Assembly (NCBI RefSeq): GCF_026151205.1 | Contig: NC_087078.1 | Coordinates: 12,693,118-12,757,117, forward strand | Length of the DNA stretch: 64,000 bases | Reading direction: 5' to 3' | From: Bolinopsis microptera | Taxonomy: Eukaryota > Ctenophora > Tentaculata > Lobata > Bolinopsidae | Part shown: piece by piece, positions 32,641-64,000 of the stretch | Layout of the letters: each line of letters starts with the position of its first letter | How positions within the stretch are numbered: the stretch's first letter is position 1 | Notes under the pieces: generated by a model | Databases searched by the model: none | Told to the model about the DNA's origin: nothing | What the model saw: only the letters and a program-made list of their open reading frames with translations | Translations under genes and position numbers: made by a program

Positions 32641-32893
32641 GCTTGCAGTAAAGTCTTAAAGTGTGGCTTATCAATAGGACTCATGTTTTCAAAACTATTT
32701 TTAGTCCTCCAGCTCCTTTTCACTATCAACCTTTTCAAATATCAGGAGCACAAGGGTTACATTTAAATTATTTAACCTTTTGGTGCTGTATAAAAATAAC
32801 ATTATTTTATTATTATATATATAATATGAAGGGGGGGGGGGGGGGGGGTGTCACGTCCGTCTATGTCCGCTTGTCTCATAGAATCCAAAAAGG

Positions 32894-33000
32894 ACAGGAC
32901 ATAGGCGGACATAGGCGGACATAGGCGGACATAGACGGACATAGGCGGACATAGGCGGACATAGACGGACATAGGCGGACATAGGCGGACATAAATGGAC
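32894..33000. repeat. 11-bp GACATAGGCGG tandem repeat
   Basis: About ten copies of GACATAGGCGG (with GACATAGACGG variants) follow directly after the subterminal repeat of copy 1. The unit is built from the same GTCCGCCTATGTC sequence as the terminal inverted repeat, so it may have grown by slippage of the element end. Confidence 0.85.
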
Positions 33001-33149
33001 ACCTAAATTGCTAAATAAAATGTTCAATTTTTGCTGTTATAGGGGGATCATGTTTTTTGTCCGTTCGGTACCCTATATTTTCAAAACGGACAAAAAATAG
33101 AGCGGACAAAAATGGACAAAAACGGACAAAAATGGAAATAACATTTAGA

Positions 33150-34558
33150 TGCTTCCTCCTCCTACTCTTCCTCCTCCTCCCCCTGGGTCTTCCTGATCTT
33201 CCTCAGTCCTCTTCCTCCTCCCCTCCTCAGTCCTCCTCCTACTCCTCCTCCTCGTCCTCAGTCCTACTCATCAGTCCTCAACAGTCCTCCTCCTCCCCAG
33301 TCCTCCTCCTCCTCCTGAGTCCTCCTCCTGGGTCCTCCTCCTCCTCTTCATCCTCCTCCTCTTCCTCTTCAGTCCTCAGTCCTCCTCCTCATCCTTCTCC
33401 TCAGTCCTTCATCCTCCTCCTCAGTCCTCCCCCAGTCCCCCTCCTCCTCCTAATCAGTCGTCCTCAGTCCTCCTTCTCAGTCCTCCTCAGTCCTCCTCCT
33501 CCTCCTCCTCCTCTTCCCTCTCAGTCATCCTCCTCAGCCATCCTCCTCAGTCCTCCTCAGTCCTCCTCCTCAGTCCTCCTCCTCCTGGGTCCTCCTCCTC
33601 CTCTTCCTCCTCGGTCCTCAGTCCTCCTCGGTCCTCAGTCCTCCTCGGTCCTCAGTCCTCCTCCTCCTGGGTCCTCCTCCTCATCCTTCTCATCAGTCCT
33701 CCTCCTCACCAGTCCTCTCCCAGTCCCCCTCCTTCTCCTCCTCCTATTCAGTCCTCCTCCTCCTCCTCCTCAGTTCTCCCCAGTCCTCCTTCTCATTTCT
33801 CCTCCTGAGTCCTCCTCCTGAGTCCTCCTCCTCTTCCTTCTGAGTCCTCCTACTGAGTCCTCCTCCTCCTCCCTCTCAGTCTTCCTCCTCAGTCATCCTC
33901 CTCAGCCATCCTCCCCGGCCATCCTCCTCAGTACTCCTCGGTCCTCCTCCTTCTCAGTCATCGTCAGTCCTCCTCCTCAGTCCTCCTCAGTCCTCCTCCT
34001 CCTCCTGGGTCCTCCTCCTCCTCCTACTCCTGGGTCCTCCTTGGTCTTCCTGATCCTCCCCAGTCCTCTTCCTCCTCCCCTCCTCAGTCCTCCTCCTACT
34101 CTTCCTCCTCGTCCTCAGTCCTCCTCATCAGTCCTCAACAGTTCTCCTCCTCCCCAGTCCTTCTCCTCCTCCTGAGGCCTTTTCCTGGGTCCTCCTCCTC
34201 CTGGGTCCTCCTCCTCCTGGGTCCTCCTTCTCCTCCTCAGTCCTTCTCCTCCTCCTCCTCAGTCCTCTGCCTCCTCTTCCTCCTCCTCCTCCCTCTCAGT
34301 CATCCTCCTCAGCCATCCTCCTCAGCCATCCTCCTCAGTCCTCCTCCTTCTCAGTCCTCCTCAGTCCTCCTCCTGAGTCCTCCTCCTCCTCAGTCATCCT
34401 CCTCAGTTCTCCTCCTCCTCCTCCTAGGTCCTCCTTCTGGGTCCTCCTCCTCCTCCTCCTGGGTCTTCCTGATCCTTCTCCTCCCTCTCAGCCATCCTCC
34501 TCAGTCATCCTCCTCAGCCATCCTCCTCACTCCTCAGCCATCCTTCTCAGCCATCCTC
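33150..34558. repeat. TCC / CTCAGTCCTCC minisatellite array (copy 1 cargo)
   Basis: Low-complexity pyrimidine DNA built from TCC triplets punctuated by CAGTCC and GGGTCC. Reading frames through it (for example a 254-codon Ser/Pro/Leu frame from 33057) arise from composition and are not genes. The complementary strand is GGA-rich and may form G-quadruplex or triplex DNA. Confidence 0.9.
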
Positions 34559-34634
34559 CTCAGTACTCTTCAGTACTCTTCAGTACTCTTCAGTACTCTT
34601 CAGTACTCTTCAGTACTCTTCAGTACTCTTCAGT
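34559..34634. repeat. CAGTACTCTT decamer array
   Basis: Seven near-identical CAGTACTCTT units close the TCC array of copy 1. Confidence 0.9.
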
Positions 34635-34649
34635 CCTCAAAATGTTTGT

Positions 34650-34850
34650 CCCCTAATGTCCACCAATGTCCGCTAATGTCCACCAATGTCCATCCAAGTC
34701 CGCCAATGTCCGTCCGGGTCCGCCAATGTCCGTCCAAGTCCTCCAATGTCCGTCCGAGTCCGCCAATGTCCGTCCGAGTCCGCCAATGTCCGTCCGAGTC
34801 CGCCAATGTCCGTCCGAGTCCGCCAATGTCCGTCCGTGTCCGCCAATGTC
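34650..34850. repeat. 20-bp GTCCGCCAATGTCCGTCCGA tandem repeat
   Basis: About ten imperfect copies of a unit alternating GTCCGCCAAT and GTCCGTCCGA lie next to the right terminal repeat of copy 1. They share the GTCCG/CCGCC vocabulary of the element ends. Confidence 0.85.
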
Positions 34851-34939
34851 CCAAAAAACACGTCCGTTGTCTCATAGAATCCAAAAAGGACAGGACATAG
34901 GCGGACATAGACGGACATGACACCCCCCCCCCCTATGAA

Positions 34940-35360
34940 ATATATTTTTGTCTGCTTTAATTGATACTAAATAAAATTGTTGTTTTCTTGAAATTTTTGT
35001 TTTCTTATTATTATCATTTGAGGGTTCCTTGACTCTAGTAATGGATAGTACATATTCGTCGCAGATTGTTTTAGTGCAGGATATTTTATAGGATCTAAAC
35101 TGTAAGAGATTTTAAAAGGTTGTTCACATGTTCTGGTATTATATTTTGGCTAATTTTTAACCCCCTCTCCTCCGTAATCAGTTTTACACATATACTAATA
35201 GCTATTATTTTAAAACAAAATGGGCGTAACAATTTAGAAACCCTCTCTGTCTCCTCAGTGAATATGTAATGTGAAAACAACCTATAAGCTTTGATTAAAA
35301 TATGGCACAAGAACAAGAAAATTTAATAGTTTAATCCGTCAACTTTAACTATAACTAGTG
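34940..35360. other. AT-rich spacer
   Basis: No supported gene. Confidence 0.3.
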
Positions 35361-35361
35361 T

Positions 35362-38177
35362 GTGGCTAGATCAAAGAAGATTGTCCGCACGTTTTGCACA
35401 TTAGCTAGTTGCGTGTGCACTGTGCAGATGGGAAATGTATATAATGCTAAATGTACATTGCACTGTAAACATCCCAAAATAACCAAAAAGGGATCAATAA
35501 ATAAACAACCCTGGTTCACACAAGCCACCAGAGAAGCTAAAATATCTTGTACTCGTGCAGCTCAAATTGTTTCTGATTTCCCCAATAGCGATTATCTTCG
35601 AAAAAATTTTTACCAAGTAAAAAATACGTACAAAAGTTTAATTGACCGTACAAAAAACAAATATCTTGTCAAATTGAATACAGATATTGAATCTGGTAAA
35701 ATTCTTAACTGGAAACAATTCAAAAAACTGAAAAAATTTAAAGGAAGAGTTGACAAATTTGATTGCCATGACATGGACAACTTTCAAAAATTCTTTGGTA
35801 AACTTTATGCCAATGCACATAGCACCATAACTGTAGAGAATAAGGAAGAAATGCTTCAAAATGCAGAGGCTATTAACAATAATTTCCAACCATCCCCTGC
35901 ACAATCAATACTCAATGGCCAGATCTCTGTGGACGAAATATCTACTGCGATCTCTTCACTCAAAAACGGCAAAAGTTCCTCGGAGGATATGATATGTAAT
36001 GAAATACTGAAGACCTTGTCCACAACAAACACACAACTCCTTTGCAAAGTCTTTAACCGCTGTTTGGACACTGGAACTTACCCATGGAACAACAGCATTA
36101 TTACACCCCTACACAAAAAAGGCGACAAAGATAATCCAGACAATTACAGAGCAGTTGCTCTCAGTAGTACAATCGGAAAACTATTTTCGACCATCATGTT
36201 AAACAGGATATTCAAGTTCAAAAATGAATACAACCCGGACCCCATAAATCAACTTGGCTTCGCTAAAGGAGCTCAAACATATGACCACATACTCACACTC
36301 AACACCATTACGTCTAAATACAAAAAGCTCAAGGTTCCCGTCTATGCTGTTTTTGTGGACTTCCGGAAGGCCTTCGACTCTGTTTGCCGTGAAGCTCTTT
36401 TCTTAAAATTAGCTAAACTAGGTATCACTGGCAAAACATTTAATGTTCTTAAACATATGTATAAAAATTCCACTGGCCAGATAAAACTATCTGGATTTGT
36501 CAGCGAAAAATTTGATATCAATAAAGGAACTGAACAGGGTCATCCACTTTCCCCTGATCTATTTAAGATATACATCAGAGATCTTTCCCCTCGACTAGAA
36601 TATGATAACTGTCCGAAACTAATGAACCAACTTATCAGTCACTTACTATGGGCAGATGATCTGATACTCTTGGCACTGGACCCCAAAACCCTCCAAAAGC
36701 AACTCGATGCTTTGAACAATTTCTGCTTGGAATGGGGCGTCGAAATTAATGCAGATAAAACTAAACTCATGAAATTTAATGCCCGTTTTGATACTTATCA
36801 GCCGGTTCCCCTCAAAATTGGTGATCACTTGTTAGAAGAAGTCGAGTCATACTGCTATCTAGGAATCGAAATACACAAATCCGGCACATTCACAAATGCC
36901 CGAACTGAGCTCAAAAAGAAAGCCATGCGTGCACTTTATGCCATGAAAAGCTCAGTAAACAAATCCAAATTATCATTCCGCTCTCTAACAACACTCTTTG
37001 ATGGTCTTATTAAACCTATCGTTCTTTACGGAGCGCCTATTTACACACCTAACATGGCTATCATAAAACACATAACAAAACAAGTCGATCTCAATATGGA
37101 TGCCGACACAAAAACAAAATTTCAAACTAGTATCCTGAGCAAGAAAATTAGCCTTCTGAACAGCGAAAAAGTTCACCTTCACTTTCTTAAATGGTCACTG
37201 GGGGTAAATCGTAAAGCCAGCAACGCAGGCGTCTGGGGTGAGTCAGGCCGCTACCCATTAATCTATGAATGTATTAACCTCACTCTCAAATATAGCCAAC
37301 GTTTGAAAAATCTCAAAGATAACTCCCTTGTCTCCTTAGCTTTCAAAGAACAGATGAACATGAAATTGGACTGGTACAGGGGTTTGGAGCCTGTCCTCGC
37401 GCTAGACCCATGTTTCTCTACCGATCATGTCACAGCCTACCGCACACTCAAAAACAATCACTCCAAGTTACTTTTCGAAAGAAACCCGAGTATCGCAAAA
37501 CCACCAAAAGAGGACTTTCTTATTCACAACGGTTTCAAGAAACGAATTCCTCCTCAATCAACACATTACACAACCCATCGGGAGTAAAATATTCACACCA
37601 CACGCCATTACTAAAACTTTGAAATGTAACTTTAGAGAATATTGGGGGTCCTGTATCAACACTTCTCGGAAATTAGAATTCTATCGTGACCTAAAATCCA
37701 AATTTAACAAAGAGTATTACCTAGATAGTGTCATTAAATATGCAGACCGTGCTAATATCACAAGACTGCGGATCAGTGCACATCGACTCGAAATTGAACT
37801 TGGCCGATATAATCAAACTCCACGTGACGAGCGAATATGCTCCTGGTGCAATATAGTCTTAGGTTCTGGTATTATTGAGAATGAAGAGTGAAGACCACTT
37901 CCTTAACCATTGTGATCTTAACGCTGCATCGAGGCGAAAAGTCCTAGACAAGATCCAGTCACTCATATCAAATCCAATCAAACCGTCTGCGACATCTTAT
38001 TCTGTTCACAATGTCATCCCTGGAGCAAACGTCCTCAAATTCATCAGCAACAACAGTGAAATCATTGAACTTATCACAAACGAAAGTCAAGTCCACCTCA
38101 CGAGAGTCCTTGCTAGGTTTGCCACTACGTGTTTTAACAACCGCAAGAAATTTGTTGACTCTCTGGCCAGTACATGA
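35362..38177 (+). mobile_element. large 5'-truncated non-LTR retrotransposon (RT plus C-terminal domain)
   Basis: A 741-codon frame (35362-37587) starts in the linker after a lost endonuclease (NKQPWFTQATREAK). It carries the reverse transcriptase in order: HKKGDKDNPDNYRAVALSST, VFVDFRKAFDSV, GTEQGHPLSPDLF, and LWADDLILLA (ADD near codon 430). Thumb and C-terminal parts follow (YLGIEIHKSGTFTN, FLKWSLGVNRKASNAGVWGE). After a frameshift near 37550 the second frame gives RLRISAHRLEIELGRYNQTP with a Cys cluster, and a shift near 37880 leads to DHFLNHC and a stop at 38177. It is fairly young: one frame is intact over 2.2 kb. Clade not resolved. The start codon is arbitrary; the element is 5'-truncated. 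Confidence 0.85.
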
Positions 38178-38404
38178 ACAGTGAACACTGAAAATCACTG
38201 TACCCGCTTTTGTTTCTTTTCGCGCAACGACGAGTGCAAACTGCAAAGTGACCTGGCTCAAGCATTACAGCATTACCAAGGCGACTGAAAACAAAATATT
38301 TTATGTCAAATCTTTATTTTTCACTTTAGTTAAGTTATATTAATATAATAAATTCAAATCTTATGATATTGTTATTATCTTAACAGTTACTATTGTAGCT
38401 CAAG

Positions 38405-38450
38405 ATTTTAAATTTGTATTCCTTGTATTCCTTGTATTCCTTGTATGCAA
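38405..38450 (+). repeat. TTGTATTCC tail repeat
   Basis: Three to four copies of TTGTATTCC lie about 230 bases after the LINE stop. Short tandem tails of this kind mark the 3' ends of many non-LTR elements, so this may be the end of the 35.4-38.2 kb LINE. Confidence 0.4.
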
Positions 38451-38500
38451 GAGTACGGATTTTTATCTTCGAAAAATATGTCAATTTAACCATAATTTTA

Positions 38501-38509
38501 TATTTTCAG
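38501..38509 (+). promoter_or_regulatory. splice-acceptor-like site before EMG1
   Basis: TATTTTCAG, preceded by a T/A-rich tract, ends at 38509, 17 bases before the EMG1 ATG. It fits a 3' splice site for a 5' UTR intron or for spliced-leader addition. Confidence 0.5.
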
Positions 38510-38526
38510 TAGTTTATTAGTGCAGT

Positions 38527-39207
38527 ATGGCAGACAGTTCAGATGAAGATGTTAATCAACATCCGGCAAAGATTGCAAAAAAGAATTCATCTGAGAAAAG
38601 ATTAATTGTTGTTTTAGAAAATGCTTCATTGGAAACCATCAAAGTTGGGAAAGTTTTCCAGTTGCTGACAGCTGATCGGCAAAAGAAAGAAAAAGGAATT
38701 CAGAAAGATCGAAAGACAGTTGCTCGACCGGACATTACTCATCAATGTTTACTCATGCTTCTAGATAGTCCCTTAAATAGAGCTGGAAAGTTGCAAGTTT
38801 ACATTCACACAGAGCGTAATGTCTTAATTGAAGTCAGTCCATCTACTCGAATTCCTAGGACATTTGATAGGTTTTGTGGACTGATGGTTCAGCTTCTTCA
38901 TAAGCTAAGTATTCATGCTGCTGATGGGCCACAAAAACTTCTGAAAGTTATAAAGAATCCAGTATCAGACCATTTCCCACCGGGTTGTAGGAAATACTGC
39001 ATGACATACAATGCTCCTAGATGTGTCAGACCCATAGAATTAGTGACAGATGAGCCTTGTGTCATGGTAATTGGGGCCCAAGCTCATGGCTCAGTTAATG
39101 TTGAGTACTCAGAAGAAAATGTTGGTATTAGTAATTACCCACTTTCGGCAGCACTAACATGCACTAAGTTGTGTGATGCTTTCGAGCAAGCTTGGGGTAT
39201 TTTGTAG
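38527..39207 (+). CDS. EMG1: EMG1/NEP1, 18S rRNA pseudouridine N1-methyltransferase
   Basis: This single-exon gene encodes 226 residues. EMG1/Nep1 is a SPOUT-fold enzyme of the small-subunit processome that methylates N1 of a hypermodified pseudouridine in 18S rRNA, and it is needed for 40S biogenesis in the nucleolus. The family signatures are present: RLIVVLENASLETIKVGK near residue 25, RPDITHQCLLMLLDSPLNRA near 68, IPRTFDRFCGLMVQLLHKLS near 113, KVIKNPVSDHFPPGC near 140, and the C-terminal NYPLSAALTCTKLCDAFEQAWG. The N-terminus is short and acidic. Length is close to animal orthologues (about 244). The first ATG follows an acceptor-like site. No introns interrupt it, although vertebrate orthologues are split. 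DOHH lies 392 bases downstream on the same strand. Confidence 0.97.
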   Translation: MADSSDEDVNQHPAKIAKKNSSEKRLIVVLENASLETIKVGKVFQLLTADRQKKEKGIQKDRKTVARPDITHQCLLMLLDSPLNRAGKLQVYIHTERNVLIEVSPSTRIPRTFDRFCGLMVQLLHKLSIHAADGPQKLLKVIKNPVSDHFPPGCRKYCMTYNAPRCVRPIELVTDEPCVMVIGAQAHGSVNVEYSEENVGISNYPLSAALTCTKLCDAFEQAWGIL

Positions 39208-39599
39208 AACTTCTTTTCTTATTTAAAGAGTTTTGGTACTTTAATTTAAATACATGATATTAACTTATTGACTGTTGACAGGTACATGATATTATACAAC
39301 TACTTTGTTATTAATTTATTGATGGTTGCTAGCCTGCAAAGACACGTTGGCTTCTCTATTTAATTGACTTAGCACAGTAAAAGTATAAAAACTGTTAGAG
39401 CATCAATACTTGAAGAGTCTATTTTATAAATTCAATGTCGATAGAACTAAACTTTGAGATGCAGAAATTAACTTTCAAGAAAACATTCTAGAATTAAAGT
39501 TGTTAAATAGCTTTATCTCTATCATTATGGTAGTCATATCATTACCGTAGCCAAACAATTTTACATTAATATCTTGACAGGAAGTTTAAAGTTACCGAC
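39208..39599 (+). other. EMG1-DOHH intergenic region with acceptor-like site
   Basis: The 392-base gap is AT-rich and has no obvious AATAAA. TTAATATCTTGACAG ends at 39580, 19 bases before the DOHH ATG, as a splice-acceptor-like site. A duplicated TATTAACTTATTGACTGTTGA-like segment (about 39258 and 39310) is visible. The arrangement fits a polycistronic pair resolved by trans-splicing, or two genes each with a 5' UTR intron. Confidence 0.45.
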
Positions 39600-40517
39600 A
39601 TGGAACCTGGAACTGTAACTGAAGCAGAACTTCAAAAAGTTGGTAAAATATTACTCAACTCTAATGCTTCTCTGGCGGAGAGATTCAGGGCTCTATTTAC
39701 TCTGATGAGTATAAACGGCCCTGATGCAGTCAATATAATTTGTGAGACGTTTAAAGATCCGTCTGAGCTTTTAAAGCACGAGCTGGCGTTTTGCCTGGGG
39801 CAAATGCAGGATCTTACTGCTTTACCAAAACTTGGGGAGGTGTTAGAAGACACAAATGAGGCAATAATAGTGAGACATGAAGCTGGGGAAGCTATTGGTG
39901 CTTTAGGTCAGATGGATTCGTTACCTTTGTTGAATAAATACTTGGATCACGAGAGCAAGGTATTGAGACAAACATGCGAGCTTGCTGTTATGAGAATAAA
40001 ACATGTCAACAGCGAGAAATCAGGACCTGATTCCCCTTTTACATCTGTTGATCCAGCTCCTGCTTTCAATCAGAACAAAACCTGCAAAGAGTTGGCTGAC
40101 ATTTTGTTAGATTCTGAACGGACACTATTTGATAGATATCGGGCGATGTTTTCACTGAGGAATCTCTCCACGCCAGAGTCAATCGATGCTTTGGTTAAAG
40201 GACTTGATTGTGATGATAGCGCCTTATTTAGACACGAAGTGGCATATGTTTTGGGCCAAATGGCTGACACACATGCTGTTGAGGGTTTGTCTCAGAAACT
40301 GAGAGACATGTCAGATGACCCAATGGTAAGACATGAAGCTGCAGAGGCACTGGGCGCAGTAGATGATCCCCGGTGTAAGGAGATTCTCGCCAAACATCTG
40401 ACTGACACTGATCTGATGGTGAAACAGAGTTGTGAGATTGCACTCGATATGAATGAGAGTGAAACCGAACACCAGTTTCAATATGCTGATACTCTTCAAA
40501 AGATTAGAAACTCGTAA
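39600..40517 (+). CDS. DOHH: DOHH, deoxyhypusine hydroxylase
   Basis: A single-exon gene of 305 residues (human about 302). The enzyme performs the second step of hypusine formation, hydroxylating the deoxyhypusine side chain of eIF5A in the cytosol with a non-heme diiron centre. It is a symmetric HEAT-repeat protein with two halves. All four metal-binding His-Glu pairs are present: KHELAFCLGQM (60-61), VRHEAGEAIGALG (93-94), FRHEVAYVLGQM (212-213) and VRHEAAEALGAV (245-246). A variable linker of about 25 residues (near 136-160) joins the halves. No frameshift or missing key residue. The ATG at 39600 gives the expected N-terminus and follows an acceptor-like AG by 19 bases. A 30-bp minisatellite begins about 60 bases after the stop. 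Confidence 0.98.
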   Translation: MEPGTVTEAELQKVGKILLNSNASLAERFRALFTLMSINGPDAVNIICETFKDPSELLKHELAFCLGQMQDLTALPKLGEVLEDTNEAIIVRHEAGEAIGALGQMDSLPLLNKYLDHESKVLRQTCELAVMRIKHVNSEKSGPDSPFTSVDPAPAFNQNKTCKELADILLDSERTLFDRYRAMFSLRNLSTPESIDALVKGLDCDDSALFRHEVAYVLGQMADTHAVEGLSQKLRDMSDDPMVRHEAAEALGAVDDPRCKEILAKHLTDTDLMVKQSCEIALDMNESETEHQFQYADTLQKIRNS

Positions 40518-40575
40518 TGATGCTTTATCATGTTTAGCCGAATTGGATTACAGTGTTAGTCAATTCTGTTTCATA

Positions 40576-40873
40576 TTCCTGAAATCCATCACAGCTTAGA
40601 TTTGTGTCCCGGAATCCATCACAGCTTAGAGTTGTGTCCCGGAATCCATCACAGCTCATATTTGTGTCCCGGAATCCATCGCAGTTTAGATTTGTGTCCC
40701 GGAATCCATCACAGCTTATATTTGTGTCCCGGAATCCATCACAGCTTATATTTGTGTCCCGGAATCCATCGCAGTTTAGATTTGTGTCCCGGAATCCATC
40801 ACAGCTTATATTTGTGTCCCGGAATCCATCACATCTTATATTTGTGTCCCGGAATCACAGCTCAGATTTGTGT
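40576..40873. repeat. 30-bp minisatellite in the DOHH 3' flank
   Basis: About 9.7 copies of a 30-bp unit containing CCATCACAGCTTAGATTTGT and GTCCCGGAAT. Because 30 is a multiple of three, the array is open in several frames as a repeated decapeptide (for example CPGIHHSLDL). No start context or domain supports translation. It probably lies in the DOHH 3' UTR. Confidence 0.9.
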
Positions 40874-41232
40874 TGACCCTATGAATCGGAGTTGGTATAA
40901 TTTATTTCGAATTGAAGTCTCATTTATTACGTTTGTATGAGCATTTATTTATTTGTTTGTGTGAAAGAGGAGTGGGTTTTCTTGAGATAAGATTGAGAAT
41001 AATAATGATTGTTGAGATCTGGAGAATAGCCTGTAGATGTGTATTAAATTATTAGGTTTTATTTTTTATTTATTAATTCCCACATTTTAATCGTGTTTCC
41101 CTCACAAGTAACCAATCTGACATACTTTGATCTCTAATTACTGACCAATTATTACTATTATAACGGTGTATTATACTGTATAACAACAGTAAAGGAATGC
41201 CAGACTCCATGTCATTACATATTACAATATAT
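40874..41232. other. AT-rich spacer
   Basis: No supported gene; may include the end of the DOHH 3' UTR. It ends in the AATATAT target duplication (41226-41232). Confidence 0.3.
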
Positions 41233-41680
41233 GGGGGGGTCCAACCCGATGTCCGATATGAGGGTTGATGAGGCCAAAATCGGAATCGGAAAAATCGGAA
41301 AATTGAGAAATTAACAGAATCGATCTCTAAAACCTCTCAGAAGTGATATAATTCAACCAGAACCCCTCCATATGCTATATTGTTATGAGAAAACGAACCA
41401 ATTGGACATTCCAATAGTATGTTTTATGTGTTTTTCCACTGCAGGGGCGCTAGTATGCTCACTACTAGTTGGAGTTGTCATGTACTCCCAGACCCGAGTG
41501 CTTTGGCCTTTTAACGTGAGATTGATTGTTTCTGCTCATTAATTTTATCCCTGTTACTTGTTATTATGTATTAGTACAACACTAGGTACCGGGTTATATT
41601 TTGTGGTCCGGTCTTTAAACATACCATAATATCACTATTACACTGCACCTTAAATGTATAGTCAAGTACATTTGTATCGT

Positions 41681-41742
41681 AACACATGCTTGGCTGGGGG
41701 ATCATGTTTTGTAACACATGCTTGGCTGGGGGATCATGTTTT
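41681..41742. repeat. 31-bp tandem duplication in the shared module
   Basis: AACACATGCTTGGCTGGGGG plus ATCATGTTTTGT is present twice in tandem; copy 1 has one related copy at 33041. Confidence 0.85.
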
Positions 41743-41792
41743 GTGACCCTATATTTTCAAAACGGACAAAAAGTAGGGCGAACAAAAACAGA

Positions 41793-43863
41793 CAACTCCT
41801 CCTCCTTCTCATCAGTCCTCCTCCTCCTCTTAAGTCTTCCTCCTCCTCCTGAGTCCTCCTCCTCCTCAGTTCTCTTCAGTCCTCTTCCTGACTCCTCGTC
41901 CTCGTCCTCGTCCTTCTCCTCAGTCCTCCTCACCCTGCTCCTCAGTCCCCTCCTCCTCCTCAGTCCTACTCCCAGTCCTCCTCCTTCTCCTCCTCCTCCT
42001 CCTCATTTCTCCTACTCATCCTCCTCCTCCTTCTCCTCCTCATCAGTCCTCCTGAGTCCTCCTCATAGTCGTCCTCCTCCTCCTGAGTCCTCCTCCTCGT
42101 CCTCCTCCACCTCCTGAGCCCTCATTTTGAGTCCTCCTCCTCATCCTCCTCCTCAGTCATCCTCCTCTTCCTCCTCAGTCCTCCCCAGACCTCCTCCACC
42201 TCATCCTCCTCCTTCTCCTCCTCATCAGTCCTCATCCTCTGTCCTCCTCATAATCGTCCTCATCATCATCCTTAGTCCTCCTTATCCTCCTCCTCAGTCC
42301 TCCCCCAGTCCTCCTCCTCATTCTCCTCCTTCTCCTCCAAGCCTCATCCTCCTCCTCCTTCTCCGCTTTCTTCTTCTCCTAATCAGTCCTCCTCCTCCTC
42401 GTCCTTAGTCCTCGTCCTCGTCCTCCTCAGTCTTCCTCTTCAGTCCTCTTCCTCATCATCCTCCTCCTCTTCCTCAACAGTCCTCCTCCTCCTCCTCAGT
42501 CTCCTCCTCCTCATCGTCCTCCTCAGTCCTCCTCCTCCTTCTCCTCATCAGTCCTCATCCTCAGTCCTACACTAGTCGTCCTCGTCCTTAGTCCTCTTCC
42601 TCCTCCTCTTCCTCCTCCTGAGTCCTCCTCATCCTCATCAGTCCTCCTCGTCAGTCCTTCTCCTCCTCTTCAGTCCTCCTCCTCCTCCTCTTCAGTCCTC
42701 CTTCTCCTTCTCCTCATTCTCCTCCTACTCATAAGTCCTCCTCCTCAGTCCTCCTCTTCCTTCTCCTCCTCCTATTTCTCCTCCTTTTCCTCCTTCTCCT
42801 CCTACTCCTAAGTCCTCCTCCTCAGTCCTTCCCCAGTCCTCCTCCTCATCAGTCCTCCCCCGGTCCTCCTTTTCCTCATCATCCTCAGTCCTCCTCCTCA
42901 TCGTCCTACTCAGTCCTCCCCCAGTCATCCTCCTCCTCAGTCCTCCCCAAGTCCTCCTCTTCCTCAGTCCTCCCCCAGTCCTCCTTCTCCTTATCCTCAT
43001 CCTCATTCCTCCTCCTCAGTCCTCCTCCTCCTCCTTCTCCTTCTTATCAGTCCTCTTCCTCAGTCCTCTTCCTCAGTCCTCCTCCTCGTCCTCGCTCTCG
43101 TCCTCCTCCTCCTCCTCCCCGTCCTCAGTCCTCCTCCTCCCCCTCCTCATCAGTCCTCCTCCTCCTCTTCAGTCCTCCTCATGAGTCCTTCTCCTTATCC
43201 TCCTCCACCTCCTGAGTCATCCTCCTCCTCCTCCACATTCTCCTCCTTATCCTCCTCCTCCTCAGTCCTCCTCATGCTCCTCCTCATTCTCCTCCTTATC
43301 CTCCTCATCCTCCTCAGTCCTCCTCCTCATCCTCCTCTTCCTTCTTCTCCTAATCAGTCCTCCTCCTCAGTCGTCCTCCTCCTCTTCCTTAACCCTTGTC
43401 CTCATCCTCCTAGTCCTCGTCCTTAGTCCTCGTCCTCCTTAGTCTTTCTCCTCAGTCCTCCTCCTCCCCCTCATGAGTCTCATCCTCCTCATCCTTCTCC
43501 TTAGTCCTCCTCCTCTTCCTCAGTCCTACTCCTCAGTCCTCCTCCTCTTCCTCATCCTCTTCAGTCCTCTTCCTCAGCTCTCATCTTCTTCCTCCTCAGT
43601 CTTCCTCCTCTTCAGTCCCCAGTCCTTCTCCTCCTCGTCAGTCCTCCTCCTCCTCCTCTTCAGTCCTTCTTCTCCTTCTCCTCATTCTCCTCCTACTCAT
43701 AAGTCCTCCTCTTCAGGACCTCAGTCCTCCTCTTCCTTCTCCTCCTCCTATTTCTCCTCCTTTTCCTCCTTCTCCTCCTACTCCTAAGTCCTCCTCCTCA
43801 GTCCTTCCCCAGTCCTCCTCCTCATCAGTCCTCCCCCGGTCCTCCTTTTCCTCATCATCCTCA
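41793..43863. repeat. TCC / CTCAGTCCTCC minisatellite array, left part
   Basis: Pyrimidine-only DNA made of TCC triplets with CAGTCC, CTCATC and GTCCTC variants. From about 42.73 kb it shows a higher-order repeat of about 960-976 bases, repeated after the LINE insertion. Ser/Leu/Pro-rich frames in it, and Arg/Gly-rich frames on the other strand, are compositional artefacts. Confidence 0.9.
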
Positions 43864-44846
43864 AGTAAAAGTGTTTGCTGATGACTCCAAGCTCCACAAA
43901 AACATTAGCTCCCCGTCCGACTGCAAATGTCTCCAGGAAGATCTCTGTGCAGTAGTGCGATGGGCAGTAGCAAACAACATGGAGCTAAACGAAAGTAAGT
44001 TCCAACTTCTCCAGCATGGTAAGAACCCTGAGCTAAAGAAACCCTACATTTTACCATCTGGTGCATCGATATCTTCTGATGATGTCGTGAAAGATCTCGG
44101 TGTGTATGTTGACAGTGATCTCTCCTGGCGTCAACACATCACAAGAAAGTCCTCTGAGGCAGCGAGCAAAGCTGGATGGGTACTGAGAACTTTCTCTACC
44201 AGAGACAAAGACACGATGATGATGCTCTTCAAGACATACGTCCGCTCTATTGCCGAGTATTGTTGTGCTCTCTGGTCGCCTCACCTGCAGTGTGACATAA
44301 TCATGATTGAGTCGATCCAACGCTCATTCACTGCGAAAATAGCAGGATACAAGCATCTTAGCTACTGGGAGCGCCTGAAGCAGCTTGATCTCTACTCCCT
44401 ACAGCGCCGCCGCGAGAGGTACATGATCATCCTTGTCTGGAAAATTTACTACGGTGAGATTCCCAACAGTGTAAACATTTCTTTCCAACACTCTCAAAGA
44501 AGAGGAGTTACATGTCTTCGTCCTCTTGGCGGATCAAAATACAAAAGCATCAACACCATGAGGTTCCATTCTTTCCCTTCAGTGGCCTCTGCTTTGTATA
44601 ACGTTGTGCCTCACGACATCAAGTCTATCCCAACCTTGCCAAAATTCAAGGCAGCACTTGATCGCTTTCTCCATACCGTCCCCGACACCCCTCCTACCCC
44701 TGGATATACAGGGGCAAATGGCAATTCAATCTTGGAATGGGCTGTGAGCAAGACATGATAACGGAGACACCGGTGGTGGAGACGCAAGATGTCTTGGCCT
44801 GGGCGTGCTAGCCCGAAACGAACCCAAGGTACCCAAGGTAAGGTAG
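43864..44846 (+). mobile_element. 5'-truncated CR1/L2-type LINE inserted in the TCC array
   Basis: A 295-codon frame ends at 44758. It starts at the RT catalytic box (VFADDSKL) and continues with the thumb and C-terminal domain (ELNESKFQLLQHGK, DLGVYVDSDLSW, SIAEYCCALWSPHL, LYSLQRRRERYMIILVWKIY, NGNSILEWAV). The frame is undamaged, so the insertion is young. The 3' tail ends in ACCCAAGGTACCCAAGGT and AAGGTAGG. Another copy of the array's higher-order unit (42870-42905) shows the same sequence without the LINE, so both junctions can be read: CATCATCCTCA on the left and GTCCTCCTCC on the right. No clear target duplication. Confidence 0.85.
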
Positions 44847-47542
44847 GTCCTCCTCCTCATCGTCCTACTCAGTCCTCCCCCAGTCATCCTCCTCCTCAGT
44901 CCTCCCCAAGTCCTCCTCTTCCTCAGTCCTCCCCCAGTCCTCCTTCTCCTTATCCTCATCCTCATTCCTCCTCCTCAGTCCTCCTCCTCCTCCTTCTCCT
45001 TCTTATCAGTCCTCTTCCTCAGTCCTCCTCCTCGTCCTCGCTCTCGTCCTCCTCCTCCTCCCCGTCCTCAGTCCTCCTCCTCCTCCTCCTCATCAGTCCT
45101 CCTCCTCCTCTTCAGTCCTCCTCATGAGTCCTTCTCCTTATCCTCCTCCACCTCCTGAGTCATCCTCCTCCTCCTCCACATTCTCCTCCTTATCCTCCTC
45201 CTCCTCAGTCCTCCTCATGCTCCTCCTCATTCTCCTCCTTATCCTCCTCATCCTCCTCAGTCCTCCTCCTCATCCTCCTCTTCCTTCTTCTCCTAATCAG
45301 TCCTCCTCCTCAGTCGTCCTCCTCCTCTTCCTTAACCCTTGTCCTCATCCTCCTAGTCCTCGTCCTTAGTCCTCGTCCTCCTTAGTCTTTCTCCTCAGTC
45401 CTCCTCCTCCCCCTCATGAGTCTCATCCTCCTCATCCTTCTCCTTAGTCCTCCTCCTCTTCCTCAGTCCTACTCCTCAGTCCTCCTCCTCTTCCTCATCC
45501 TCTTCAGTCCTCTTCCTCAGCTCTCATCTTCTTCCTCCTCAGTCTTCCTCCTCTTCAGTCCCCAGTCCTTCTCCTCCTCGTCAGTCCTCCTCCTCCTCCT
45601 CTTCAGTCCTCCTTCTCCTTCTCCTCATTCTCCTCCTACTCATAAGTCCTCCTCCTCAGGACCTCAGTCCTCCTCTTTCTTCTCCTCCTCCTATTTCTCC
45701 TCCTTTTCCTCCTTCTCCTCCTACTCCTAAGTCCTCCTCCTCAGTCCTTCCCCAGTCCTCCTCCTCATCAGTCCTCCCCCGGTCCTCCTTTTCCTCATCA
45801 TCGTCAGTCCTCCTCCTCATCGTCCTACTCAGTCCTCCCCCAGTCATCCTCCTCCTCAGTCCTCCCCAAGTCCTCCTCTTCCTCGGTCCTCCCCCAGTCC
45901 TCCTTCTCCTTATCCTCATCCTCATTCCTCCTCCTCAGTCCTCCTCCTCCTCCTTCTCCTTCTTATCAGTCCTCTTCCTCAGTCCTCCTCCTCGTCCTCG
46001 CTCTCGTCCTCCTCCTCCTCCCCGTCCTCAGTCCTCCTCCTCCTCCTCCTCATCAGTCCTCCTCCTCCTCTTCAGTCCTCCTCATGAGTCCTTCTCCTTA
46101 TCCTCCTCCACCTCCTGAGTCATCCTCCTCCTCCTCCACATTCTCCTCCTTATCCTCCTCCTCCTCAGTCCTCCTTAGTCTTTCTCCTCAGTCCTCCTTA
46201 GTCCTCGTCCTCCTTAGTCTTTCTCCTCAGTCCTCCTCCTCCTCCTCATGAGTCTCATCCTCCTCATCCTTCTCCTTAGTCCTCCTCCTCTTCCTCAGTC
46301 CTACTCCTCAGTCCTCCTCCTCTTCCTCATCCTCCTCATCCTCTTCAGTCCTCTTCCTCAGCTCTCATCTTCTTCCTCCTCAGTCTTCCTCCTCTTCAGT
46401 CCCCAGTCCTCCTCCTACTCGTCAGTCCTCCTCCTCCTCCTCCTCGTCCTCATCCTCCTCATCCTCCTCGTCCTCCTCCTCCTCCTCAGTCCTCCTCCTC
46501 CTCTTCCTCAGTCCTCCTTCTCCTTCTCCTTCTTCTCCTCCTACTCCTAAGTCCTCCTCCTCCTCCTCCTCAGTCCTCCTCCTCCTTCTCCTCCTTTTCC
46601 TCCTTCTCCTCCTTCTCCTCCTACTCCTAAGTCCTCCTCCTCCTCAGTCCTCCCCCAGTCCACCTCCTCATCAGTCCTCCGCCAGTCCTCCTTCTCCTCC
46701 TTCTCATCCTCAGTCCTCCTCCTCATCATCCTCCTCAGTCCTCCCTCAGTCCTCCTCCTCAGTCCTCCCTAAGTCCTCCTCTTCCTCAGTCCTCCCCCAG
46801 TCCTCCTTCTCCTCTTCATCATCAGTCCTCCTCCTCAGTCCTCGTCCTCGTCCTTCTCCTTCTTATCAGTCCTCCTCCTCAGTCTTCCTCCTCGTCCTCG
46901 CTCTCGTCCTCCTCCTCAGTCCTCCTCGTCCTTAGTCTTCCTCCTCCTCACCAATCAGCTGCTCCTCTTCCTCAGTCCTCCCTCTCCTCTTCAGTCCTCC
47001 TCCTCCTCAGTCCTCCTCCTCCTCAGTCCTCCTCGGTCCTTCTCCTCCTCCTCAGTCCTCCCCAGTCCTCCTCTTTCTCCTCAGTTTTCCTCCTTCTCCT
47101 CCTCCTCCTCCTCAGTTCTCCTCCTCACCCTCCTTCTCCTTCTCCTCTTCCTTCTCCTCCTAATCAGTCCTCCTCCTCAGTCGTCCTCCTCCTCGTCCTT
47201 AGTCATCGTCCTCATCCTCATCGTCCTTAGTCCTCGTCCTCATCCTCCAAGTCCTTGTCCTTAGTCCTCGTCCTCATCCTCCTAGTCCTGGTCCTGGTCC
47301 TCCTCTGTCCTCCTCAGTCCTCCTTCTCCTCAGTCCTCAGTCCTCCTCCTCAGTCCTCTTCCTCCTCATCAGTCCTCCCCCAGTCCTCCTTCTCCTCCTC
47401 GTCATCCTCAGTCCTCCTCCTCCTTCTTATCAGTCCTCCTCCTCAGTCCTCGTCCTCGCTCTCGTCCTCCTCCTCAGTCCTCGTCGTCCTTAGCCCTCGC
47501 GTTCTCTTAGTCCTCCTCCTCCCCGTCCTCAGTCCTCCTCTT
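44847..47542. repeat. TCC / CTCAGTCCTCC minisatellite array, right part
   Basis: Continuation of the array. The segment from 44847 repeats the sequence from 42888 almost base for base, and again from 45807. Identical 81-codon Ser/Pro frames at 43181 and 45124 show how little the copies differ. After about 46.7 kb the order is looser. Confidence 0.9.
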
Positions 47543-47588
47543 GAAATGGGTAGCACGGTCAATGGTCATTAACCGTGCTACCCATTTC
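47543..47588. repeat. perfect 17-bp hairpin at the end of the TCC array
   Basis: GAAATGGGTAGCACGGT (47543-47559) is exactly reverse-complemented at 47572-47588 with a 12-base loop. It marks the sharp boundary between the TCC array and the unique right end of copy 2. Confidence 0.9.
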
Positions 47589-47608
47589 TGCAGATAGCCT
47601 GTTACAAA

Positions 47609-47860
47609 TTGTGGAGACAATTTAAATCAAAAGTTACTAAAGCGTTCTCTATTTGTTACGATTGCTATTACCAACCGTACCTCTTTCAATTGTGGACCGG
47701 GGTGGATGTTTCTGTCAAACAAGAGTTGATACGACAGTGTGTTGTTTTTCGGACGAAACGATTCTTGTTTGGAACTAGAAACCATTTTGGGGTTCTGGGA
47801 CCACCACCAATCGATTTCTTGTCATATTTAAGTACAGAAATAGCTACCTATATCGCCTAG
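47609..47860 (+). CDS. short ORF inside TIR copy 2, unknown
   Basis: An 83-codon frame with non-repetitive composition (for example KLWRQFKSKVTKAFSICYDC) lies between the hairpin and the right subterminal repeat. No family, domain or splice context recognised. It could be a captured gene fragment or chance. Confidence 0.2.
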   Translation: MWRQFKSKVTKAFSICYDCYYQPYLFQLWTGVDVSVKQELIRQCVVFRTKRFLFGTRNHFGVLGPPPIDFLSYLSTEIATYIA

Positions 47861-48123
47861 AAACCTCAGAGGAAAGATTTAAATTTTCCCGATTTTTCCG
47901 ATATGAGGGTTGATGAGGCCAAAATCGGAATCGGAATGATCGGAATGATCGGGTTGGACCCCCCCCAATATATCATTTGGTTTTACCCTTCTGACGTACC
48001 ACGTTCTTTACTGAACATCTTGATTAATTAAATTCCATTCTGTAGCCAGTTTTTATACCAACACACTCTAACCGATACTATCACATAGCAAGGAACCGTG
48101 AATGGAGTCGTGACTGTCATACC

Positions 48124-48460: not shown

Positions 48461-48683
48461 TACTTGTGTTTCTTATCGGCACGCGTTGTAGTTATAAGTT
48501 ATTTGGTTGAAGCAGCTTGTTTTCAGAATACACCCTCAGTGTGATCATGTTCGCTAATAATGGTTAGCTCCTACTAATTTGATGTGATTGTTGGGTACCA
48601 CTTACTCATTAGATTCTCATTCTCGACCAAGTCATAACAAGTTCGATTAATTTGATGTCAACATGATATTGATGTTTGACTGC

Positions 48684-51600
48684 CAGGGAGTGTAGAACGT
48701 ACACCCAAACACTCCCTCACCAGTCACCTGACTAACAGGGAGTGTAGAACGTACACACAAACACTCCCTCACCAGTCACCTGACTAGCAGGGAGTGTAGA
48801 ACGTACACCCAAACACTCCCTCACCAGTCACCTGACTAACAGGGAGTGTAGAACGTACACACAAACACTCCCTCACCAGTCACCTGACTAACAGGGAGTG
48901 TAGAACGTACACACAAACACTCCCTCACCAGTCACCTGACTAACAGCCAACAGGGAGTGTAGAACGTACACACAAACACTCCCTCACCAGTCACCTGACT
49001 AACAGGGAGTGTAGAACGTACACACAAACACTCCCTCACCAGTCACCTGACTAACAGGGAGTGTAGAACGTACACTCAAACACTCCCTCACCAGTCACCT
49101 GACTAACAGGGAGTGTAGAACGTACACACAAACACTCCCTCACCAGTCACCTGACTAACAGGGAGTGTAGAACGTACACTCAAACACTCCCTCACCAGTC
49201 ACCTGACTAACAGCCAACAGGGAGTGTAGAACGTACACACAAACACTCCCTCACCAGTCACCTGACTAACAAGGAGTGTAGAACGTACACACAAACACTC
49301 CCTCACCAGTCACCGGACTAACAGCCAACAGGGAGTGTAGAACGTACACACAAACACTCCCTCACCAGTCACCTGACTAACAGAGAGTGTAGAACGTACA
49401 CCCAAACACTCCCTCACCAGTCACCTGACTAACAGCCAACAGGGAGTGTAGAACGTACACACAAACACTCCCTCACCAGTCACCTGACTAACAGGGAGTG
49501 TAGAACGTACACCCAAACACTCCCTCACCAGTCACCTGACTAACAGCCAACAGGGAGTGTAGAACGTACACACAAACACTCCCTCACCAGTCACCTGACT
49601 AACAGGGAGTGTAGAACGTACACCCAAACACTCCCTCACCAGTCACCTGACTAGCAGGGAGTGTAGAACGTACACACAAACACTCCCTCACCAGTCACCT
49701 GACTAACAGGGAGTGTAGAACGTACACTCAAACACTCCCTCACCAGTCACCTGACTAACAGGGAGTGTAGAACGTACACACAAACACTCCCTCACCAGTC
49801 ACCTGACTAACAGGGAGTGTAGAACGTACACTCAAACACTCCCTCACCAGTCACCTGACTAACAGGGAGTGTAGAACGTACACACAAACACTCCCTCACC
49901 AGTCACCTGACTAGCAGGGAGTGTAGAACGTACACCCAAACACTCCCTCACCAGTCACCTGACTAGCAGGGAGTGTAGAACGTACACCCAAACACTCCCT
50001 CACCAGTCACCTGACTAGCAGGGAGTGTAGAACGTACACCCAAACACTCCCTAACCAGTCACCTGACTAACAGAGAGTGTAGAACGTACACACAAACACT
50101 CCCTCACCAGTCACCTGACTAACAGGGAGTGTAGAAACTAGAACGTACACCCAAACACTCCCTCACCAGTCACCTGACTAACAGGGAGTGTAGAACGTAC
50201 ACCCAAACACTCCCTCACCAGTCACCTGACTAACAGGGAGTGTAGAACGTACACTCAAACACTCCCTCACCAGTCACCTGACTAACAGCCAACAGGGAGT
50301 GTAGAACGTACACACAAACACTCCCTCACCAGTCACCTGACTAACAGAGAGTGTAGAACGTGCACCCAAACACTCCCTCACCAGTCACCTGACTAACAGC
50401 CAACAGGGAGTGTAGAACGTACACACAAACACTCCCTCACCAGTCACCTGACTAACAGGGAGTGTAAAACGTACACCCAAACACTCCCTCACCAGTCACC
50501 TGACTAACAGGGAGTGTAGAACGTACACTCAAACACTCCCTCACCAGTCACCTGACTAACAGGGAGTGTAGAACGTACACCCAAACACTCCCTCGCCAGT
50601 CACCTAACTGCTAGGGAGTGTAGAACGTACACACAAACACTCCCTCACCAGTCACCTGACTAACAGGGAGTGTAGAACGTACACCCAAACACTCCCTCAC
50701 CAGTCACCTGACTAACAGGGAGTGTAGAACGTACACCCAAACACTCCCTCACCAGTCACCTGACTAACAGGGAGTGTAGAACGTACACCCAAACACTCCC
50801 TCACCAGTCACCTGACTAACAGGGAGTGTAGAACGTACACACAAACACTCCCTCACCAGTCACCTGACTAACAGGGAGTGTAGAACGTACACCCAAACAC
50901 TCCCTCACCAGTCACCTGACTAACAGGGAGTGTAGAACGTACACCCAAACACTCCCTCACCAGTCACCTGACTAACAGGGAGTGTAGAACGTACACACAA
51001 ACACTCCCTCACCAGTCACCTGACTAACAGGGAGTGTAGAACGTACACCCAAACACTCCCTCACCAGTCACCTGACTAACAGGGAGTGTAGAACGTACAC
51101 CCAAACACTCCCTCACCAGTCACCTGACTAACAGGGAGTGTAGAACGTACACCCAAACACTCCCTCACCAGTCACCTGACTAACAGAGAGTGTAGAACGT
51201 ACACCCAAACACTCCCTCACCAGTCACCTGACTAACAGGGAGTGTAGAACGTACACCCAAACACTCCCTCACCAGTCACCTGACTAACAGGGAGTGTAGA
51301 ACGTACACACAAACACTCCCTCACCAGTCACCTGACTAACGGAGAGTGTAGAACGTACACCCAAACACTCCTTCACCAGTCACCTGACTAACAGGGAGTG
51401 TAGAACGTACACCCAAACACTCCCTCACCAGTCACCTGACTAACAGAGAGTGTAGAACGTACACCCAAACACTCCCTCACCAGTCACCTGACTAACAGGG
51501 AGTGTAGAACGTACACCCAAACACTCCCTCACCAGTCACCTGACTAACAGGGAGTGTAGAACGTACACCCAAACACTCCCTCACCAGTCACCTGACTAAC

Positions 51601-51806
51601 ATGGAGTGTAGAACGTACACCCAAACACTCCCTCACCAGTCACCTGACTAACGGAGAGTGTAGAACGTACACCCAAACACTCCCTCACCAGTCACCTGAC
51701 TAACAGGGAGTGTAGAACGTACACTCAAACACTCCCTCACCAGTCACCTGACTAACAGAGAGTGTAGAACGTACACCCAAACACTCCCTCACCAGTCACG
51801 TGACAA
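48684..51806. repeat. 52-bp hairpin satellite, about 59 copies
   Basis: Each unit holds GGGAGTGT, AGAACGTACAC, then ACACTCCC, CTCACCAGTCACCTGACTAA. GGGAGTGT and ACACTCCC are perfect complements, so every unit can form an 8-bp stem with a loop of about 15 bases. The base after GTACAC distinguishes three subtypes (CCC, ACA, CTC). Seven units are followed by an extra CCAACAG, all in the first 33 copies, while CCC units dominate the last third. The array lies in the first intron of the NOS1AP-like gene if the exon at 48124 is real. It is not CRISPR: there are no unique spacers. Confidence 0.95.
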
Positions 51807-60000: not shown

Positions 60001-60235
60001 CACTTCTAGATTGCATACCCACCATTCTAGCTGCCAGACCCACTATTCTCAAGTGCATACCCACCACTCTGGTTGTCAGACCACTCTTTAAGGGTACAGA
60101 CCCATCATTCTGGTTGCCAGACCCACTTCTAGATTGCAGACCCACCATTCTGGTTGCCAGACCCACTTCTAGATTGCAGACCCACCATTCTAGCGGCCAG
60201 ACCCACTCTTCTCAAGTGCAGACCCACCACTCTAG
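57097..60235. repeat. hierarchical 21/42/124-bp satellite
   Basis: The basic unit is about 21 bp (CAGACCCACCATTCTGGTTGC and CAGACCCACTCTTCTAGAGTG alternate), forming 42-bp dimers. From about 58.25 kb dimers of three kinds (CTGGTTG / CTTCTAGATTG, CCAGCTG / CTTCTCAAGTG, CTGGTTGT / CTTCAAGGGTG) combine into a higher-order unit of about 124-131 bp. Some units end in the perfect palindrome GGGTGTACGTACACCC (58496-58511 and later copies). Long frames through it are artefacts. It lies in the NOS1AP-like intron. Confidence 0.9.
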
Positions 60236-61087
60236 GCAACAGGGGTGAATAATATCAACAAATAAAGATTGTTTAATTTTTGCAAAAAAATTCTCGTCAT
60301 GTGACAACCCTTCCCAACCCCCCTCAACCCCCTACCCCTCCCCCCTAAAAAACCCATCGGATTTTTGCTTCCCGCGAACATGATTTTTTCTGAAAATTTT
60401 TGTCAAGCCAGATCTGTAAATCTATCAAATATGTAAAAAAAAAACCTTAAGTTACACGTACAAAATATATACGGTTGCTTCTTTGAGGAGTACCATTGTG
60501 CGTGGTATACCAGTTTGTGTGGTTAATCTTACTCTTACGACAATTTGTTACATCTGTGTTCTGGCAGCCTTCAACAATCACAGTTCTCTTGTCCCACAAA
60601 CCTTTAAATGTTTCTTGAAGTTTTCGAAACCAGACATGTGATTAATGTGATTAAACCCAAGATAGTTTTTAATCGCTCGAAGGAACCAGTAGAGGACTTC
60701 ATCAATTTAGTTTCTTGAATTTAAGACAAGCTTCTGTTTCTCACACCAGCTGTTTCATAACCTCCAGTAGCCAGCAATATTGCATTGGATATAATTGATA
60801 CAAATTTGGTGTAATAAAAATGAAATTATTCCTTTGGTGGGTTAGTGGGGGAAAGTCGCGGTTTATCCCACAGAATATGTCTACAACAGTAAATAGTGTT
60901 GTCGGGGTGCAAAGGTTTACTTGATAACTAATCAACATTAAATGAGTAGTTTAATGGCAAAATTTAAATATTTCTCTAATTTTTACATTATGTATCCAGG
61001 CTTGGTCTTAAATTGATTGTTATGAGTATTATGAGTATTGCTGAAAGCACAGTGTAAGGCCTACATTTTCATTAACTTCATTTTCAG
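60236..61087. other. end of the 8.3-kb intron
   Basis: A C-rich block (60306-60350) is followed by AT-rich DNA. No gene supported. It ends with a strong polypyrimidine acceptor (CTTCATTTTCAG). Confidence 0.4.
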
Positions 61088-63692: not shown

Positions 63693-64000
63693 GCAGTAGT
63701 AGTAGGAGTAGCAGTAGCAGTAGTAGTAGCAGTAGGAGTAGCAGTAGCAGTAGCAGTAGCAGTAGCAGTAGCAGTAGCAGTAGCAGTAGCAGTAGCAGTA
63801 GCAGTAGCAGTAGCAGTAGCAGTAGCAGTAGCAGTAGCAGTAGCAGTAGTAGTAGCAGTAGCAGTAGCAGTAGCAGTAGCAGCAGCAGCAGCAGCAGCAG
63901 TAGCAGTAGCAGTAGCAGTAGTAGTAGCAGTAGCAGTAGCAGTAGCAGTAGCAGTAGCAGTAGCAGTAGTAGTAGCAGTAGCAGTAGCAGTAGCAGTAGC
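63693..64000. repeat. AGTAGC hexanucleotide microsatellite (runs off the window)
   Basis: Over 300 bases of AGTAGC units with AGTAGT interruptions and one pure AGC tract (about 63880-63900). It continues past the window end, so its length is unknown. Confidence 0.95.

Follow-up and report, generated by a model that had tools for sequence, protein, structure and literature searches.

Tandem arrays lodged within non-autonomous mobile elements are an established phenomenon, which has also been reviewed (2022; PMC9659126). In Drosophila virilis, the foldback element Tetris is described as carrying tandem repeats within TIRs of ~220 bp, and it shares its tips with the miniature element DAIBAM (PMC4079207). 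In Crassostrea gigas, the account of Cg_HINE describes central arrays between flanking modules, occurring in varying combinations and dispersed through the genome, all of which is shared by the elements considered here (PMC7492417). A minisatellite inside a miniature inverted-repeat element, a further point of likeness, is described for the BrickBuilt MITE of Porphyromonas gingivalis, although that element is bacterial, is given as 19 copies in one strain, and has a 23-bp repeat unit (PMC4596501).

The DNA analyzed here (the window, a stretch of 64,000 nucleotides at C7:12693118-12757117) belongs to a 264.65-Mb assembly of Bolinopsis microptera in 232 contigs. Apparent host genes in the window encode EMG1/NEP1 and a HEAT-repeat protein; other open frames contain reverse transcriptase and endonuclease domains.

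Two elements in the window, E1 (32831-34933) and E2 (41233-47966), are interpreted, with a probability of roughly 85%, as members of two families of non-autonomous TIR DNA transposons that have a minisatellite as their interior. Paired ends, target-site duplications of fixed length, an interior common to both families, and young copies are all observed. The features of both elements are given in window positions and lie on the plus strand; the target-site duplications are unstranded.

E1 begins with 18 G and ends with 11 C. The left cap and TIR tip (the G-run plus TGTCACGTCCGTCTATGTCCGC) span 32831-32871, and the right TIR tip and C cap span 34894-34933, with the inverted tips being 33-40 bp long, part of the cap included. 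The sequence immediately outside is TATGAA on both sides (32825-32830 and 34934-34939). Near the ends, a 58-bp subterminal segment at 32865-32922 recurs in the same orientation at 34862-34918 (97% identity). A left array of GGACATAGGC 10-mers (32897-32993) and a right array of 20-bp units, GTCCGCCAATGTCCGTCCAA (34658-34851), match one another in inverted orientation at 77-85% over ~100 bp. Between these arrays lie the module common to E1 and E2 (33042-33131) and a TCC/CTCAG minisatellite (33154-34638).

E2 has the same architecture on different termini. Its left G cap and TIR (GGGGGGGTCCAACCCGAT) occupy 41233-41250, and its right TIR and C cap 47948-47966, with seven G at one end, eight C at the other, and a TIR length of 18 bp; AATATAT is duplicated at 41226-41232 and 47967-47973. 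The subterminal direct repeat is 49 bp long (41252-41300 and 47897-47945, 96% identity). The E2 copy of the common module (41679-41795) has a 32-bp piece doubled and part missing, and is followed by the minisatellite in two parts (41796-43862 and 44848-47542), the second of which contains long-period repeats of ~960 and ~1940 bp. The parts are separated by a fragment at 43864-44847 that we take to be retrotransposon-like; it contains an ORF and has no Pfam match. At 6.7 kb, this copy of E2 is oversized relative to the median of 3.15 kb for the 39 E2 pairs listed. The coordinates of both elements, the G-run and C-run termini joined to inverted repeats, and the subterminal direct repeats were thus exactly as originally predicted.

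Genome-wide counts of the tips were made with the reversed pattern as the control. The E1 tip in a version with six G gave 368 + 345 exact matches (reversed pattern, 0), and the same tip without its G cap gave 413 + 413 = 826 (reversed, 0); the E2 tip gave 103 + 103 (206), against 0 + 1 for its control. The search with the uncapped E1 tip allowed up to two mismatches, and all of the hits among the matches listed had none. No match to the E1 tip was found in the viral, bacterial, and archaeal contigs of IMG/VR and GTDB. Pairing was assessed from listed positions, which for E1 covered C1 and the part of C2 below 8.18 Mb, and for E2 covered C1-C5. Among the matches listed, 74 E1 ends on C1 formed 31 inward-facing pairs, and 26 on C2 below 8.18 Mb formed 12, to give 43 pairs from 100 ends; pair length ranged from 1.2 to 6.5 kb, with a median of 2.57 kb. 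When the C1 ends were instead placed at random, 2000 trials yielded a mean of 0.75 pairs and a maximum of 5. For E2, 97 listed ends formed 39 pairs (median 3.15 kb, range 75 bp-12 kb).

Target-site duplications were examined for E1 in a sample of 28 loci, comprising the 8 best DNA matches, picked by similarity over the whole element, and 20 stretches selected on the basis of their tips, including the longest pairs. Both ends were present in 26 of these loci (not in L006 or L078). The duplication was an exact 6-mer in 22 of the 26, a 5-mer in three others (6 bp with the inclusion of one C from the C-run), and a 6-mer with one mismatch in L075. The 22 exact targets are varied A+T-rich hexamers with T at position 3 in every case and, in 19 of them, A at position 4; when flanks were exchanged between copies, 6-bp matches arose in 12 of 1000 draws, and some target hexamers do recur. 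The E2 sample consisted of 12 pairs (the window copy and 11 others whose two ends were retrieved) and points to duplications of ~7 bp, with at least 5 bp in 9 of the 12, the exact length being blurred by the C-run. These nine comprise two unambiguous 7-mers, four duplications of 7-9 bp if adjoining C is counted, one 6-mer, one 6-mer that uses two C of the run, and one 5-mer; L045/L046 has no duplication, and L040/L041 and L058/L059 have no clean one. In 2000 draws of the cross-copy control for E2, no match was longer than 3 bp. The perfect duplications that had been claimed on either side of E1 and E2 therefore hold for the two window elements and for most, rather than all, of the other copies, and the ends recur elsewhere as pairs with duplications, the finding on which the TIR reading had been staked.

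The copies appear to be fairly young. Identity in the left region of E1 is 94-100% among 25 copies (mean 97.5%), and four E2 copies other than the query are 100% identical over 1 kb. Inside the element, a C1 copy and a C2 copy of E2 share 99.7% identity over 600 bp, and their 300-bp flanks are unrelated. The terminal runs vary in length, with 6-36 G or C in E1 copies and up to 50 in E2 copies; this range looks like the outcome of slippage, after insertion, of a tip fixed at G7-G8, or may include homopolymer assembly error.

These data also bear on whether the arrays were spread by another route, such as extrachromosomal circles, segmental duplication, or gene conversion, with the supposed ends being conserved borders of the array. 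Some arrays and modules do lie without exact ends nearby, and one pair of E2 loci (L050/L060) is a duplicated locus. However, duplications of fixed length at different sites, with far lower values in the cross-copy controls, strongly disfavor such a route, as do the unrelated flanks in the one pair of near-identical copies that was tested, and we regard it as extremely improbable.

The interior is the same in the two transposon families. In both E1 and E2, the module contains GGGGGATCATGTTTT and, further on, decamers of the GGACAAAAA type, and then gives way to the TCC/CTCAG array. Over 90 bp, the E1 module has 93% identity to those of two other E2 copies (L067 and L050), and over 50 bp it has 90% identity to that of the window's E2. 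A 26-mer from the module core occurs 429 times in the genome. Among 64 module matches from C1 and from the part of C2 below 8.18 Mb, E1 pairs enclose 42; another 10 are no more than 6 kb from a lone E1 end, and three accompany E2 ends. The other nine are near no exact end, although one of the nine adjoins an E1 tip that lacks the full cap. All 28 sampled E1 loci have a TCC-rich interior of the same type, and in 27 of them one or both of two module motifs are present as exact matches. In a sample of 30 E2 end loci picked by tip, the array was present within 1.5 kb of the end in 26; the exceptions are L045, L047 (where a different tandem array follows), L065, and L068 (where another element is inserted). 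The prediction that elements with unlike tips share one layout and cargo, including a module just before the array, is thus borne out well beyond the two window copies.

The original prediction had also proposed that the elements are a mobile source of minisatellites. In favor of this, the arrays lie inside the elements, vary in length among copies, and contain long-period repeats; L070, for example, has repeats of ~920-970 and 2180 bp, and five copies of the module. The proposal may not extend to every array. Of 31 array clusters located on C1 by one exact 29-mer, 24 are within or beside E1 ends, and seven are near no recognized end; the first matches of these seven are at 4,364,976, 5,033,614, 5,467,076, 10,116,534, 15,040,381, 19,673,555, and 23,903,582. 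Seven other arrays in the window were tested for flanking inverted repeats and none scored above the threshold, so that packaging of this kind does not look general for tandem repeats here; one of the seven, at 57104-60248, gave an inverted-repeat score of 28, and the highest score after shuffling was 27.

The mutually inverted 10-bp and 20-bp subterminal arrays of E1 raise the alternative of a foldback-type element, in which long, internally repetitive TIRs would drive both transposition and repeat growth, with the TCC/CTCAG array being an outgrowth of the TIR repeats. Tetris and Galileo, as described, are precedents for such an arrangement. Nevertheless, E2 carries the same cargo with an 18-bp TIR and with no such end arrays seen, and the TCC-rich bins are confined to a single strand in each of the 28 E1 loci rather than occupying both arms. 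A foldback origin of the array is consequently judged to be quite unlikely.

A third G-capped element, E3, is nested in the E2 loci L050 and L060, with lengths of 405 and 414 bp, and is flanked by TAGTACA or CTAGTACA. The outer flanks of these two loci align over 400 bp with a score of 385, against at most 19 after shuffling, which indicates that their E3 copies represent a single insertion that was copied when the locus was duplicated; for the same reason, the pair was rejected as proof that E2 moved after E3 had landed. Ten other E2 end loci have uninterrupted sequence with one copy of the target at this position, and the window's E2 carries a one-base variant of the target site. This is the sole direct empty-site evidence, and it concerns E3, not E1 or E2.

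Despite their different tips, E1, E2, and E3 share a layout of G cap, short inverted tip, and a segment in direct orientation near both ends (58 bp in E1, 49 bp in E2, and ~86 bp in E3). The recurrence of direct subterminal repeats with three different tips would be explained if each large element had begun as two nearby short G-capped elements in the same orientation, each consisting of a tip, a segment of ~50-60 bp, and a tip; the outer tips would then have been used jointly and the intervening DNA, in these elements the module and minisatellite, carried along, and the same accident befalling different short elements would have given rise to E1 and E2. A solo unit of E2 is expected to measure ~84 bp (tip, 49-bp segment, and tip), and at two places, C5:12316271-12316345 and C2:20215803-20215887, the tip positions put paired E2 tips 75 and 85 bp apart. 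Furthermore, E1 has inner inverted matches to its tips: the left one, of 16 bp, scores 32 (shuffled maximum 22), and the right one, over 26 positions, scores 37 (shuffled maximum 20). These matches, however, fall in the decamer and 20-bp arrays of E1 itself, which are made of such motifs, and the corresponding matches in E2, with scores of 17 (shuffled maximum 21) and 20 (shuffled maximum 18), are at or barely above background; there is also no short pair among the 43 listed E1 pairs. On balance, the composite origin is possible but doubtful. The broader form of the idea is less probable again, and we raise it tentatively: E1 and E2 may belong to an undescribed G-capped group, the large members of which are composites of two direct G-capped units of ~85 bp that enclose and mobilize any DNA between them, with at least two such units having taken up the same module and minisatellite. 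If such a group were real, it would provide a general means by which satellite DNA is packaged and spread.

An autonomous relative with the same ends and a transposase had been suggested as something to look for; transposase domains of the P, MULE, and hAT types were sought, and none was linked to E1 or E2. For the TNP-like RNaseH domain (P superfamily), there were no matches in the genome, but the control genomes were also silent, which makes this a weak test. MULE transposases gave 88 matches genome-wide, and none of the 38 on C1-C5 lies between listed ends (for E1, the ends on C1 and part of C2); two are within 9 kb of an E1 end, outside the element. For hAT, 150 of 365 candidates were scored, and none of the 61 matches on C1-C5 lies between listed ends. 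Inspection by eye of the six longest frames in each of eight longer E1 loci found frames within the array and one LINE-like frame. An open frame in L068 was considered as a possible E2 transposase and rejected, as it is part of a separate multicopy element nested in E2.

A lysine-rich ORF occurs at two loci that each have one exact E2 end listed, and these loci might be the autonomous source of E2, with the ORF encoding the transposase, or an accessory protein, of an undescribed group. The match at C5:14042416 (the locus at ~14.04 Mb) is 1.37 kb inside an E2 plus-end, in an open frame of 446 aa. The match at C2:10312509 ends 1.1 kb before an E2 minus-end, and this end (at ~10.31 Mb) keeps 165 bp of the E2 right region at 93% identity. 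The two loci match each other at 80% over 104 aa, and a search with the protein gave seven matches in all, those beyond these two loci being weaker. Counting against an autonomous source are the listing of one exact E2 end rather than two at each locus, and the content of the ORF, for which the parts read match nothing in NCBIfam or PDB and, in Pfam, only a sub-threshold helix-hairpin-helix, and are lysine-rich and internally repeated with no recognizable catalytic domain. We consider it rather unlikely that these loci are the source; the ORF may belong to a transposase gene, may be a captured gene, or may specify an accessory protein.

Returning to the interpretation of E1 and E2 as two families of non-autonomous TIR transposons, the following mode of propagation is proposed. 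The outermost bases of the mobile unit are ~7-8 or more G, with C at the opposite end, and transposases encoded elsewhere would presumably act in trans on the tips. Insertion of the whole unit would generate the 6-bp duplication in E1, centered on T-A, and the ~7-bp duplication in E2. What is carried between the tips, in the copies read, is a short conserved module followed by the TCC/CTCAG array, in place of a transposase gene. Within individual copies, array length probably changes through unequal exchange or slippage, as suggested by the length differences and the long-period repeats. Because the array is inside the mobile unit, each movement of the unit would scatter the minisatellite; and because unrelated tips enclose the same module and array, the interior would have passed between the two sets of ends. 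The sharing of the module is itself an observation, whereas the direction and route of interior transfer are what we infer. The system bears on the long-standing question of how minisatellites and satellite arrays come to occupy many unrelated genomic sites: one repeat type is carried by hundreds of fairly young elements that have precise boundaries and two unrelated sets of ends, so that array growth, end swapping, and copy age can be measured within one system. The homopolymer tips are a curiosity in their own right, in that an end recognized by a transposase would vary from ~7 to more than 30 G.

The view that no named family has this design stands in part: no family with these sequences was found in the collections and papers searched, but arrays in non-autonomous transposons are an established kind of element. 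In the literature searched, no TIR transposon with G-run ends and a target duplication was found, nor were homopolymer tips combined with 6-bp T-A-centered or ~7-bp duplications, or one module and array on two unrelated sets of ends. Elements of the Helitron type make no target duplication and have their own type of end. The TIRs and duplications of E1 and E2 do not fit a Helitron or Helentron (HINE) identity, and the inverted repeats and 6-7 bp duplications separate them from Cg_HINE, described as a non-autonomous Helentron (PMC7492417). The length of the duplications is shared with Dada (6-7 bp) and with IS3EU and GingerRoot (6 bp) (PMC3706591, PMC10045372). Nevertheless, both candidates were set aside: for IS3EU/GingerRoot, the 6-bp duplication fits E1, but the termini given are TA..TA (or TG..CA) rather than G-runs, and the described members of Dada are without TIRs and reside in small RNA genes, whereas E1 and E2 have TIRs and the E1 targets are varied A+T-rich sequences. 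Galileo, of the P superfamily, is similar in having 7-bp duplications, internal tandem repeats in its TIRs, and chimeric copies (PMC3573991); it differs in that no P-type domain match was obtained here (a weak test), and G caps are unmentioned in the account of Galileo cited. The likeness to Tetris is that of one non-autonomous TIR element with internal tandem repeats to another, and Tetris repeats are described as feeding satellite arrays (PMC4079207); unlike Tetris as there described, E1 and E2 have their interior taken up by the TCC/CTCAG array, which occurs between two unrelated sets of tips.

The third G-capped element, whose tips differ from those of the TIR families E1 and E2, is found nested inside E2, as a 414-bp copy in one genome locus (L050:1898-2311) and as a 405-bp copy on the reverse strand of another (L060). 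A 7- or 8-bp duplication accompanies the element in both; these two copies represent one duplicated locus. At 10 other loci bearing an E2 tip, the corresponding site lacks the element and is uninterrupted.

A separate multicopy element, for which 40 candidates were scored, lies inside a further E2 copy (L068, from C2:14404176 on, C2 being a contig of the same assembly); it carries a degraded ORF, the fragments of which gave no Pfam match. In L047, a different tandem array, with units like TTATACCTAGCTTGTTGTAGATCTAATTGGGTTTTTCTGAAA, follows the E2 end (C1:15649746 onward), and is perhaps another insertion bearing repeats. A lysine-rich ORF with an internal repeat lies near one E2 end at each of two loci (L065, C2:10312509-10312910; L090 and L089, C5:14041600-14042415), and the parts of this ORF that were covered gave no match to a known family in Pfam, NCBIfam, or PDB, except for one helix-hairpin-helix below threshold.

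The window contains further tandem arrays: a 52-bp minisatellite (48677-51804; about 59 copies, 93% match), for which no flanking inverted repeats above background were detected; a 21/42-bp minisatellite (57104-60248), with an inverted match between its flanks one point above the shuffled maximum; and a GCAGTA hexamer array (63693-64000) extending past the window end.

The window's E2 copy contains ~960-bp repeats in its minisatellite array, as well as a fragment (43864-44847) that, judged by eye, we take to be retrotransposon-like. An E1 copy (L085, C2:6752467-6759599) encloses an open frame of 1093 aa, LINE-like by the same visual judgment.
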